A stretch of 32,390 nt of DNA from Gammaproteobacteria bacterium (lineage in GTDB: Bacteria; Pseudomonadota; Gammaproteobacteria; Steroidobacterales; UBA11654). The notes under the pieces were generated by a model, which was not told the origin of the DNA, searched no databases, and saw nothing but the letters and a program-made list of their open reading frames with translations. A program made the translations under genes and the position numbers. The stretch is taken from the NCBI GenBank assembly GCA_029941465.1, contig JAPYQN010000005.1, positions 41,330 to 73,719 of the forward strand, read 5' to 3'. This document shows, in pieces, positions 2,560-17,122 of the stretch. Numbering within the stretch: position 1 is the first letter of the stretch; every line of letters begins with the position of its first letter.

Positions 2560-3224
2560 TTAAGACTGCCTTCATCAAGTTCATGCATGGTTTGGCAGTT
2601 TTGTGCTAACAATAAATCATGTGTCACAATTACAATGGTGGTTTGGTATGCATGGTTAATGGAGAACAATAAATCACTAATAATCTCAGTGCTAGCTTTG
2701 TCTAGATTGCCTGTGGGCTCATCAGCAAAAAGAATCTTCGGTTGCTTAACCATGGCTCTAGCTATTGCTACACGTTGTTTTTCTCCCCCTGATAACTGGT
2801 TGGGTAAATGTTTGACGCGTTTCTCAAGACCTATTTGACTAAGCGCTTCCATAGATTTATTCTTGGCGTTTTTATCGCCTAAAATCTCCAGTGGCAACAT
2901 CACATTATCTAGGGCTGAGAGTCTTGGCAGAAGATGAAATGACTGAAACACAAACCCCACATCATTGCTTCTGACTTGCGCCCTTTTATCTTCATTCATT
3001 GTTGTTATCTCATGACCTATGAGCTTAATACGCCCTCTGCTTGGCAAATCAAGACCTGCCATGATCGCTAATAAAGTGGTCTTTCCAGAACCTGATGGGC
3101 CAACAATTGAGGTTACATCACCTGTGTTAATTGTAAGATTTATATCTTTAAGTATTGTCAACACACCTTCGGGACTGTTAACTTCTTTAGTAATGTTTTG
3201 GACTTCTAAAATTGACTCTTTCAC
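2553..3224 (-). CDS. ybbA: ABC transporter ATP-binding protein, YbbA/LolD-like
   Basis: Walker A GPSGSGKTT, signature LSGGEKQR, Walker B ILFADEPTGNLD. Likely GTG start at 3224 (VKESILEVQNITKEV); the track extends to 3302. Confidence 0.88.
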   Translation of the reverse strand: MKESILEVQNITKEVNSPEGVLTILKDINLTINTGDVTSIVGPSGSGKTTLLAIMAGLDLPSRGRIKLIGHEITTMNEDKRAQVRSNDVGFVFQSFHLLPRLSALDNVMLPLEILGDKNAKNKSMEALSQIGLEKRVKHLPNQLSGGEKQRVAIARAMVKQPKILFADEPTGNLDKASTEIISDLLFSINHAYQTTIVIVTHDLLLAQNCQTMHELDEGSLKC

Positions 3225-7528: not shown

Positions 7529-7735
7529 TTAAGACTGGATACCAAAACGTTTTCTAAACTTATCAACCCGTCCTGCCGTGTCTACAATTTTCTGTTGGCC
7601 TGTATAAAAAGGATGGCAAGCAGAACAAACCTCAATAGATAAATCAGAGAGTAAAGTTGATTTTGTGACAAACGAATTGCCGCAAGAACAAGTTACCTTA
7701 ATCTCTTTATAATCTGGATGTGTTTCTTTTTTCAC
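7529..7735 (-). CDS. rpmE: 50S ribosomal protein L31, zinc-binding (four-Cys) type
   Basis: [22 protein letters not shown]…[29 protein letters not shown]. Confidence 0.96.
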
Positions 7736-7762
7736 GTGTTTCTTTGTTAGGTTTATTAATTA

Positions 7763-8008
7763 TATCTTATTGTATAAGCCCAAATATTTTTTGGGATGCA
7801 AGCATAACGACTTGTTAAGATATTTTCAAGAAAATTAGAACTATTCTATGTAAATGTTATCCACAAAATCTGTGGATAACTTTGTGGATATTCTTGAAAA
7901 ACAAACCAATAAGTTAACAATACTTGAAAACCTTTGAATTGTATAAAAAATAGACAGTTTTTGATATTTTCTATGTACTTCATATATTTATAAGGCTATC
8001 TTATTGTA
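7763..8008. repeat. 12-bp direct repeat TATCTTATTGTA (7763-7774 and 7997-8008) bracketing the DnaA-box cluster
   Basis: Exact repeat read from sequence; related TATCTTTATTTAT at 8081-8093. Confidence 0.7.
7857..7891. promoter_or_regulatory. Cluster of three DnaA boxes: TTATCCACA (7857-7865), TGTGGATAA (7871-7879), TGTGGATAT (7883-7891)
   Basis: Two perfect TTATCCACA boxes as a 9-bp inverted repeat with 5-nt spacer; third box one mismatch in ATATCCACA orientation, 3 nt away. Confidence 0.8.
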
Positions 8009-8061
8009 ATATATTTGAAATGAACTCTAATTACTTAATAAAAAATCAATGAATTTTTTTC

Positions 8062-8070
8062 TGTGAATAA
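8062..8070 (-). promoter_or_regulatory. Fourth DnaA box: TGTGAATAA (revcomp TTATTCACA)
   Basis: Exact match to TTATNCACA in the same gap. Confidence 0.6.
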
Positions 8071-8140
8071 TTGACAGTTTTATCTTTATTTATAAATTAG
8101 GCAAATTCATTAATGATCAATACTTTAACGAAGTTTTTGT

Positions 8141-8743
8141 TCAATCTTTGAGTTTTATTATATGTTCTTTTAAGGCTGTTAAAGCCAAAGCCCTATGGCT
8201 AACTTTGTTTTTTTCTTTATCAGAAAGTTCAGCTGAAGATTTTCCAATAACGGGGTCAAAAAACAACGGGTCATAACCAAAACCATTGCTTCCTTTAGGG
8301 TTATTTAAAATTACCCCTTCCCAAGTCCCCCTAAAGGTATGGATTTGATTATTATGTTCTTTGTCAATTAATGCGATGACGCATTCAAATCTAGCGCCTC
8401 TTGCTTCTTTATTAAGATGTGACATGTTTTTAAGTAGCGCTATATTGTTGTTTGAATCGTTTGCATTCTCACCGCTATAGCGTGCTGAAAAAACCCCAGG
8501 CTCACCATTTAAAGCATCAACAACTAACCCAGAATCATCGGCTATTGTTGTTATGCCAGTTGCCTCAAAGACACCGGTTGCTTTAATTATAGCGTTTTCC
8601 TTGAAACTTAACCCTGTTTCAAGAATGGGTTTTATCTTGTAATCGGACTGTTTTACAATTTTATAGTCTGAACCTAATATTGCTTTTACTTCAAAAATTT
8701 TATGTTGGTTGTTTGAAGCAAGTATTAGTGTTTTGTTTTTCAT
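8141..8743 (-). CDS. rdgB: RdgB/HAM1 family XTP/dITP diphosphatase
   Basis: LILASNNQHKIFEVKAIL, ADDSGLVVDALNGEPGVFSARYSGENA, GFGYDPLFF motifs. Confidence 0.95.
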   Translation of the reverse strand: MKNKTLILASNNQHKIFEVKAILGSDYKIVKQSDYKIKPILETGLSFKENAIIKATGVFEATGITTIADDSGLVVDALNGEPGVFSARYSGENANDSNNNIALLKNMSHLNKEARGARFECVIALIDKEHNNQIHTFRGTWEGVILNNPKGSNGFGYDPLFFDPVIGKSSAELSDKEKNKVSHRALALTALKEHIIKLKD

Positions 8744-15058: not shown

Positions 15059-15893
15059 GCTTATCAGGCTTGGCCGACCCATAGGGCTCTACTTGCTCCT
15101 ATGGCCAACTTTATGTTCTCTTTGGCTTTCTCACAAAGGGGTTCCAAATATCAAATTAATGCTGATTTTCTGTTTGGGTGTTTTTGTAATGCGCTCAGCC
15201 GGTTGTGTTATTAATGATATTGTTGATAGAGATATTGACCCCCAAGTGCAACGAACCAAAACAAGGCCCTTAGCCAATCAATCGATTAGCCTTGGAGAGG
15301 CTTATATTATTTTGTTTATCCTCTTATGTGTAGCCCTTATTTTAGTTTTACAGCTTAATGTAGGCGCGCTTCTTTGGTCTATATGTGGTTTGGCCCTTGC
15401 TGTTTTATACCCTTTTTGTAAGCGGTTTATTGCAGCGCCACAATTGGTGTTGGGCCTTGCTTTTAGTTGGAGCATTCCTATGGTTTATACTGCTGGGGGC
15501 TTTGTTTTAGATAAGGGCTTCATTTATTTATGGTTAAGCACAATCTTATGGATTGTTGTTTATGACACTTTTTATGCATTGGTTGATAAAGCTGATGATT
15601 TAAAAATCGGGGTGCGCTCAACAGCAATACTTTTTGGGGACAATGTTGGTTTAATTACTGGGGTTTTACAGGTTTTGGTTCTTGTTTTATGGGTTATGGT
15701 TGGAATAACCAGTGGCCTTGGTCAGTTTTATTTTTACTCTCTTTTGTTTGCTGCGGCTCTGTTCGTTCGCCAGCAATTCCTTATCAGGTCCTCAAATCCT
15801 GAGCAAATACTCAAGGCATTTACAGAAAATAACTATGTGGGCTTGTGTGTGTTTTTTGGTGTTTTTACTGGCCTTCTGCTTGGAGCTCATTGA
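15033..15893 (+). CDS. ubiA: 4-hydroxybenzoate octaprenyltransferase
   Basis: YFELIRLGRPIGLYLLLWPTLCSLW, NDIVDRDIDPQVQRTKTRPLA, DKADDLKIGVRSTAILFG motifs; start at ATG 15033 rather than 14997. Confidence 0.93.
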   Translation: MTKTKAYFELIRLGRPIGLYLLLWPTLCSLWLSHKGVPNIKLMLIFCLGVFVMRSAGCVINDIVDRDIDPQVQRTKTRPLANQSISLGEAYIILFILLCVALILVLQLNVGALLWSICGLALAVLYPFCKRFIAAPQLVLGLAFSWSIPMVYTAGGFVLDKGFIYLWLSTILWIVVYDTFYALVDKADDLKIGVRSTAILFGDNVGLITGVLQVLVLVLWVMVGITSGLGQFYFYSLLFAAALFVRQQFLIRSSNPEQILKAFTENNYVGLCVFFGVFTGLLLGAH

Positions 15894-16039: not shown

Positions 16040-17122
16040 ATGGCTTTTGCAATCGTTGCCACAATCATTGTAATCGGAACGGTTCTTTGGAACGCCGTTA
16101 CCCCGTGGTGGTTTACACCCCTGGCTTCTAATTGGGGCGCCTTTGACCAAACAATTATTATTTCATTATGGGTCACTGGTGTGGCCTTTGTTTTGGTGTC
16201 GGGTTTTATTATTTACTGTGTTATTAAATTTCCTTATAGAGAAGGACACAAATCTGAATACGAACCAGAAAACACGAAACTAGAGCTCTGGTTAACGGTA
16301 ATCACAACCATAGGAGTGCTTGTTTTGTTGGCTCCGGGATTAATTGCTTGGAATGATTATGTTGCTCTTCCTGATGAAGGAATCGAAGTAGAGGGGGTTG
16401 GCCAACAATGGGTTTGGAGTTATCGTTTCCCAGGTGAAGACGGGGTTTATGGCAACACTAGTGGTCGCCTTTTTAGTTCAAAAAACACCTTTGGTCTTGA
16501 CCCAAATGACCCAAACAGCTTGGATGATATTTTAATCAGGTCAGCAGAAGTTCACCTTCCAATTAATGAAAACGTCATTATGCAATTAAGATCTAAAGAT
16601 GTCTTACATGACTTTTATATCCCTCAGTTCAGGGCAAAAATGGACCTCGTTCCTGGACAACACACAAACCTATGGTTTGAACCGACATTGTTAGGAACCT
16701 ATGAGGTTGCTTGTGCCGAATATTGTGGAACGGGGCATTTCGCAATGCGGGGGTTGATTACTGTGGACACAAAAGAAGATTTTCAAGTGTGGCTGGAAAA
16801 ACAACCAACGTTTGCACAAACCCTTAATGAAGGGGTTGAAGGAAGCGGGAAGCAAATCGCACAAACCCTAGGATGTGTTGCTTGTCATAGTGATAACGGA
16901 GTCAATGGCATTGGGCCAACATGGAAGGATAGTTTTGGGTCAACAAGAGAACTTGCAAGCGGAGAAATTGTGCTGGTTGATGAGACTTATATAAAAGAGT
17001 CAATTGTTAACCCAACAGCTAAGATAGCAAGCGGTTATGCACCCATAATGCCGGCTTATGCCACTCTTTCTGATGAGGAGCTGGATGCTATTGCTGACTA
17101 TATTAAAACTTTGTCGAACTAG
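16040..17122 (+). CDS. coxB: Cytochrome c oxidase subunit II with C-terminal fused cytochrome c domain (caa3-type)
   Basis: CuA motif CAEYCGTGHFAM; C-terminal CVACH haem-binding motif and a Met in APIMPAYA as possible axial ligand. Confidence 0.94.
   Translation: MAFAIVATIIVIGTVLWNAVTPWWFTPLASNWGAFDQTIIISLWVTGVAFVLVSGFIIYCVIKFPYREGHKSEYEPENTKLELWLTVITTIGVLVLLAPGLIAWNDYVALPDEGIEVEGVGQQWVWSYRFPGEDGVYGNTSGRLFSSKNTFGLDPNDPNSLDDILIRSAEVHLPINENVIMQLRSKDVLHDFYIPQFRAKMDLVPGQHTNLWFEPTLLGTYEVACAEYCGTGHFAMRGLITVDTKEDFQVWLEKQPTFAQTLNEGVEGSGKQIAQTLGCVACHSDNGVNGIGPTWKDSFGSTRELASGEIVLVDETYIKESIVNPTAKIASGYAPIMPAYATLSDEELDAIADYIKTLSN

Follow-up and report, generated by a model that had tools for sequence, protein, structure and literature searches.

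A DnaA-box element between rpmE and rdgB is probably a DARS-type DnaA-reactivating site and not a replication origin

The gap between rpmE and rdgB in this gammaproteobacterial genome raises the question of whether its DnaA boxes mark the chromosomal replication origin or a site that acts on DnaA in some other way. A preliminary description of the locus had offered both possibilities: an oriC at an unusual place in this lineage, or a secondary DnaA-binding locus. The window, that is, the whole stretch of 32,390 nucleotides that was analyzed, corresponds to G000:C5:41330-73719, and its own genome (G000) comprises 1.39 Mb in 52 contigs. Here we compare the layout of the site, its conservation and the strand asymmetry around it with those of relatives and of known E. 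coli elements. We conclude that the site is probably a DARS-type DnaA-reactivating element and not a replication origin.

The DnaA-box cluster and its setting

To one side of the gap lie gltA and rpmE, to the other rdgB, gmk, rpoZ, spoT and recG (Table 1). The name rpmE rests on tblastn of the relatives' copies against E. coli rpmE, with the window's open reading frame matching at the same place. The four DnaA boxes that had been placed at 7857, 7871, 7883 and 8062 are all present, the one at 7883 with one mismatch, and the reported GC content of 34 in the 180 positions 7921-8100 is exact; the AT content of the gap is 72-82%. On the plus strand the core reads TTATCCACA-AAATC-TGTGGATAA-CTT-TGTGGATAT, i.e. 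TTATCCACA-N5-TGTGGATAA-N3-TGTGGATAT, such that a forward box I is followed after 5 bp by a reverse box II and after a further 3 bp by a reverse box III.

Table 1. Coordinates of the element, the gap and the neighboring genes in the window
Feature	Position	Strand	Remark
rpmE (ribosomal protein L31)	7529..7735	-	conserved neighbor of the element
Gap	7736-8140		intergenic, between rpmE and rdgB
Whole predicted DARS-type element: boxes I-III, Fis site, weak IHF site, distal inverted box	7857..8070	+	layout conserved in the order and the class
DnaA box I, TTATCCACA	7857..7865	+	corresponds to box I of E. coli DARS1 and DARS2 in place and orientation
DnaA box II, TTATCCACA	7871..7879	-	5 bp from box I
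DnaA box III, ATATCCACA	7883..7891	-	one mismatch; 3 bp from box II; TGTG here in 30/30 order loci
Predicted Fis site GTATAAAAAATAGAC	7941..7955	+	0 mismatches to consensus GNNNAWWWWWTNNNC; offset +84
Place of the conserved IHF site	7972..7989	+	+115 to +132; degenerate, best match at 7972-7984 with 3 mismatches
Distal inverted DnaA box, TTATTCACA	8062..8070	-	offset +205; relatives mostly +202 to +207
rdgB (XTP/dITP pyrophosphatase)	8141..8743	-	other neighbor of the element

We analyzed whether this cluster exceeds what chance would produce. Allowing one mismatch, the window contains 37 DnaA-box matches versus 43 expected, a number that by itself is not above chance. The three-box core, by contrast, should occur 0.01 times per window even with up to three mismatches; in the 1.39-Mb genome it was found once, even when two mismatches were allowed. 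Furthermore, the genome has 67 perfect TTATNCACA sites, and no other two of them lay as close together. A genome-wide count of box clusters, which the preliminary description had named as a check, thus left this site as the only tight DnaA-box cluster.

Scans of the window with Rfam and for tRNAs gave no matches. Promoter-like matches numbered 12, compared to 6.5 in shuffled sequences, and were left out of the evidence. The gap contains an exact 12-nt direct repeat, TATCTTATTGTA, at 7763-7774 and 7997-8008; repeats in the gap other than the DnaA boxes are probably due to chance in AT-rich DNA.

Strand asymmetry and the position of the origin

An origin at rpmE/rdgB would be consistent with a box cluster lying in an AT-rich gap, and the raw cumulative GC skew pointed in the same direction: in five genomes of the genus its minimum fell within about 1.1 kb of the site. 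An oriC beside rpmE therefore looked convincing on the raw skew. However, the genes on either side are mostly directed away from the site, and these divergent operons produce the raw turn. A first control, based on third codon positions, was noisy. A second control used fourfold-degenerate sites: their skew was measured with gene strand as a covariate, the best-fitting breakpoint was sought by a scan, and the break now fell at the gap between dnaA and dnaN. The break was located at 124-125 kb in G002 (C1; dnaA-dnaN gap at 125,354-125,543), at 100,654 in G006 (C1; gap at 100,490-100,683), at 59,308 in G005 (C9; gap at 58,968-59,159) and at 16,183 in G004 (C6; gap at 15,505-15,692). Permutation of the T/A skew gave p values of 0.003-0.005 in all four genomes, and the G/C skew placed the break at the same location in all four, although in G005 it was not significant by itself. 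No strand-controlled fourfold-site break was found at the rpmE site in any of these four genomes. As a breakpoint, the rpmE site accounted for no more than 1.5% of the skew variance in G000, G002 and G006. In G004 and G008 it accounted for no more than 10%, and there much better fits were obtained with other breakpoints. Thus, of the skew signal that had been proposed as a check on the oriC reading, the raw minimum at the site stood, whereas the strand-controlled break lay elsewhere.

Across the 350 bp examined, the dnaA-dnaN side itself has an AT content of 72-73%, and it contains 3 to 5 box-like sites, so that the combination of a DnaA-box cluster with an AT-rich region, present at the rpmE site, is not specific to it. 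In G006, a 140-bp stretch inside the dnaA-dnaN gap (C1:100536-100675) contains five DnaA boxes, three of them perfect and two near-perfect, and this gap is the strongest candidate for the origin in the genus. The distance from the dnaA-dnaN gap to the rpmE site was 41-60 kb in the two relatives that have both on one contig.

Two complete genomes from two other families of the order, G032 and G057, likewise contradict an origin at rpmE. Their skew minimum lies about 10 kb from dnaA and within about 20 kb of it, respectively, while the rpmE site is positioned inside one arm, 90 or 212 kb off, with its boxes kept. A dif site was found in both, in G057 almost exactly opposite dnaA; none was found in the genus of the window. 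In G032, G057, G034 and G006 parS adjoins dnaA, and no parS was found in G000 or G002. Altogether, the real origin of the genus is most probably the dnaA-dnaN gap, and we regard an origin at rpmE/rdgB as highly improbable. The case also exposes a trap for origin prediction, in that raw GC skew can mark a DARS-like site situated between divergent operons.

The preliminary description was correct that the usual origin genes are not visible here: dnaA and dnaN are missing from the window's own assembly. dnaN was not found in 6 of the 11 family assemblies (G000, G001, G003, G007, G009 and G010), full-length dnaA is missing in the same six, and this absence is commoner than would be expected from the completeness stated for these assemblies; the origin region of these assemblies may have been lost in assembly or binning. 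We also observed that the sign of the fourfold-site skew is inverted in the genus, where the dnaA-dnaN gap is a plus-to-minus switch and the leading strand is A- and C-rich; in G032, a member of the same order, the sign is opposite to that of the window's genus.

Conservation of the core and its flank

Conservation in related genomes was another check named at the outset, and the boxes proved to be kept beside rpmE across the order. The pattern TTATCCACA-N5-TGTGGATAA was present in 35 of 60 relatives, nearly always as a single copy, and its spacer was 5 bp in all 35 in a search that permitted 3 to 8 bp; the reversed control pattern had no match among the 60. At 29 of 30 loci in the order rpmE lay within about 350 bp of the core, the single exception being cut by a contig end. 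The orientation of the core relative to rpmE was kept, as was the 3-bp spacing to the third box (30/30), and the core 23-mer was identical in all eight family members that have it.

The element extends well beyond the order. Of 387 genomes sampled from across the class, 169 contained a strict core pattern, frequently in more than one copy, while its reversed control gave 0 matches in the same 387 genomes. This suggests that recharging of DnaA by DNA sites is widespread, and it may be old. A scan of the genome collection for the exact 23-mer returned at least 120 loci, including ones in Legionella, Nitrosomonas and Methylobacter, and the third box was present in 97 of the 120 loci listed.

Some genomes deviated from the single-copy pattern or from the common layout. 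G044 carries two cores. G032 has a second, imperfect DARS-like core at C1:2789347 (locus L083); there the Fis consensus is matched perfectly at +85, and a box-like TGTGGACAA lies at about +193. In Legionella cores (e.g. L142, L151 and L153) the distance to the extra DnaA box is about 115-133 bp and not about 204 bp, and this box is apparently on the opposite side of the core, which makes these cores a different variant of the element.

To analyze the flank we aligned 73 non-identical cores, picked by the presence of the core and of an inverted box at +185 to +213; Fis and IHF sites played no part in the choice. The consensus of the alignment contained two further blocks, first Fis and then IHF. 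The Fis consensus GNNNAWWWWWTNNNC lay at +84 to +87, and a match with at most one mismatch at +79 to +89 was present in 63 of the 73 cores, compared to about 4 of 73 in equally wide windows elsewhere. The IHF consensus WATCAANNNNTTR lay at about +120, and 41 of the 73 cores matched it with at most one mismatch at +114 to +131, against a background of 1.1 of 73 in other windows. Relatedness among the sampled cores makes them non-independent, and these counts are not to be read as formal probabilities. In E. coli DARS2 a 5-bp shift of either the IHF or the Fis site cuts activity (PMC4245941), and such sensitivity would explain why positions in the flank are held among the relatives.

The start of rpmE is about 120 bp downstream of the core, and the two are neighbors throughout the order, which would fit boxes that regulate transcription of rpmE or rdgB and thereby couple a ribosomal protein gene to DnaA. 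However, the core, the Fis position and the distal box also occur at loci without rpmE, priA, hemW or rdgB: among the 19 such cores with a distal box, a Fis match was present in 17 and an IHF match in 10. Furthermore, the core geometry equals that of the E. coli DARS sites, which lie in unrelated gene contexts. Regulation of the neighboring genes is thus quite unlikely to be what the boxes are for, and a side effect of the element on rpmE is possible.

A DARS-type reading and its E. coli counterparts

We assign the site to the DARS type on the basis of its core geometry, its perfect match to the Fis consensus, its distal inverted box, the conservation of this layout, and the presence in the genome of genes for Fis, IHF-alpha and an Hda-like protein. 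A function of this kind is predicted from the layout. The Fis homologue (G000:C33) has 49% identity, IHF-alpha (G000:C1) scored above the family cut-off, and the gene for the Hda-like protein is on G000:C7; dnaA, the remaining component expected of a host, was found in genus mates. The earlier suggestion of a secondary DnaA-binding locus was therefore right in kind, with a layout that is that of a DARS rather than of a plain titration cluster. Points against the DARS reading are that the IHF place is degenerate in the window's own genome, with 3 mismatches, and that the flank differs from that of DARS2 in the order of Fis and IHF and in the direction of the distal box.

By analogy with E. coli, where boxes I and II bring two DnaA molecules head to head so that ADP is dropped (PMC8682772), ADP-DnaA molecules would pair head to head on boxes I and II, box III would aid assembly, and Fis, together with IHF at what is here a weak site, would bend the flank. 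ADP would then leave DnaA, the freed DnaA would reload with ATP, and the recharged protein could fire the real origin nearby. The distal box may serve as a feedback sensor, like box V of DARS2 (PMC8682772), or as a loop anchor.

DARS itself is known, DARS sites have been characterized in E. coli, and publications already describe DARS2 as conserved in E. coli-like beta- and gammaproteobacteria (PMC4245941, PMC8682772, PMC5742627). In the open-access PMC literature we found no description of the present layout, of the location at rpmE or of the wide spread, including Legionella and Pseudomonas. The fixed positions offer exact sites for deletion or assay in cultivable species.

Among the known E. 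coli systems, oriC resembles the site in combining several DnaA boxes with AT-rich DNA within about 250 bp. It differs in that it lacks the three-box core, and the skew break of the genus lies at the dnaA-dnaN gap instead. The datA locus is likewise an intergenic DnaA-box cluster that controls DnaA, and a titrating or datA-like inactivating locus would bind DnaA or spur hydrolysis of its ATP and hold initiation back. The site has a high-affinity box cluster and possible IHF control, any such cluster titrates DnaA to some degree, and origin-proximal clusters, of which this is one, suit titration (PMC12371093). However, the head-to-head core with its fixed 5- and 3-bp spacing is characteristic of DARS and absent from the E. 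coli datA stretch, and titration alone would not demand positions fixed within a few base pairs. To our knowledge, datA has no conserved Fis site. In contrast, such a site is a feature of DARS2 (PMC4245941), and we consider titration or datA-like inactivation an unlikely role.

The DARS-type reading draws on the two E. coli DARS cores, which read TTATCCACT-N5-TGTGGATAA-N3-TGTGTATTA in DARS1 and TTATTCACC-N5-TGTGGATAG-N3-TGTGAAGAA in DARS2 of strain K-12. Equal spacing, and a box I opposed to boxes II and III, are the features common to DARS1 and DARS2 (PMC5742627), and the site has the same three boxes in the same orientations with the same N5 and N3 spacing. One pattern with 19 fixed bases fits the window core and both E. 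coli cores, and it had no match in oriC, dnaA, datA or other E. coli stretches (eight stretches checked). DARS1, in the bioD-uvrB gap, differs from the site in requiring only a short flank, and since it is active without Fis and IHF (PMC5742627), a flank is not needed in every DARS. It carries ATTGGCG at +83 (L128, from position 3108), where many relatives in the order begin their Fis site with the same sequence, and this hints, at the level of sequence, at common descent with them; DARS1 has no match to the Fis consensus at that place and no match to the IHF consensus with at most one mismatch.

DARS2, in the rppH-mutH gap and dependent on IHF and Fis, resembles the element in its flank too: Fis and IHF consensus sites lie to the right of the core, and another DnaA box is found at about +205 to +211. 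The Fis site in the window, at a conserved position, matches perfectly, and the IHF site at about +120 is recognizable in relatives but degenerate in the window's own genome, as described above. However, the order in the window is core, Fis (+84), IHF (about +120) and inverted box, whereas in E. coli it is core, IHF, Fis and box V (PMC4245941); the E. coli box at +211 points the opposite way to the distal box of the window; and the element lies beside rpmE near the origin, whereas DARS2 is at mutH, midway between oriC and the terminus. Because of these differences in order, distal-box direction and location, we do not file the element as DARS2. We put forward, tentatively, that it could represent a widespread and possibly ancestral third DARS type (core, Fis, IHF, inverted box at about +204), often situated at rpmE, priA or hemW, which would be a main DnaA-recharging site across Gammaproteobacteria, kept even in a 1.4-Mb genome, with DARS1 and DARS2 as its relocated and rearranged relatives.
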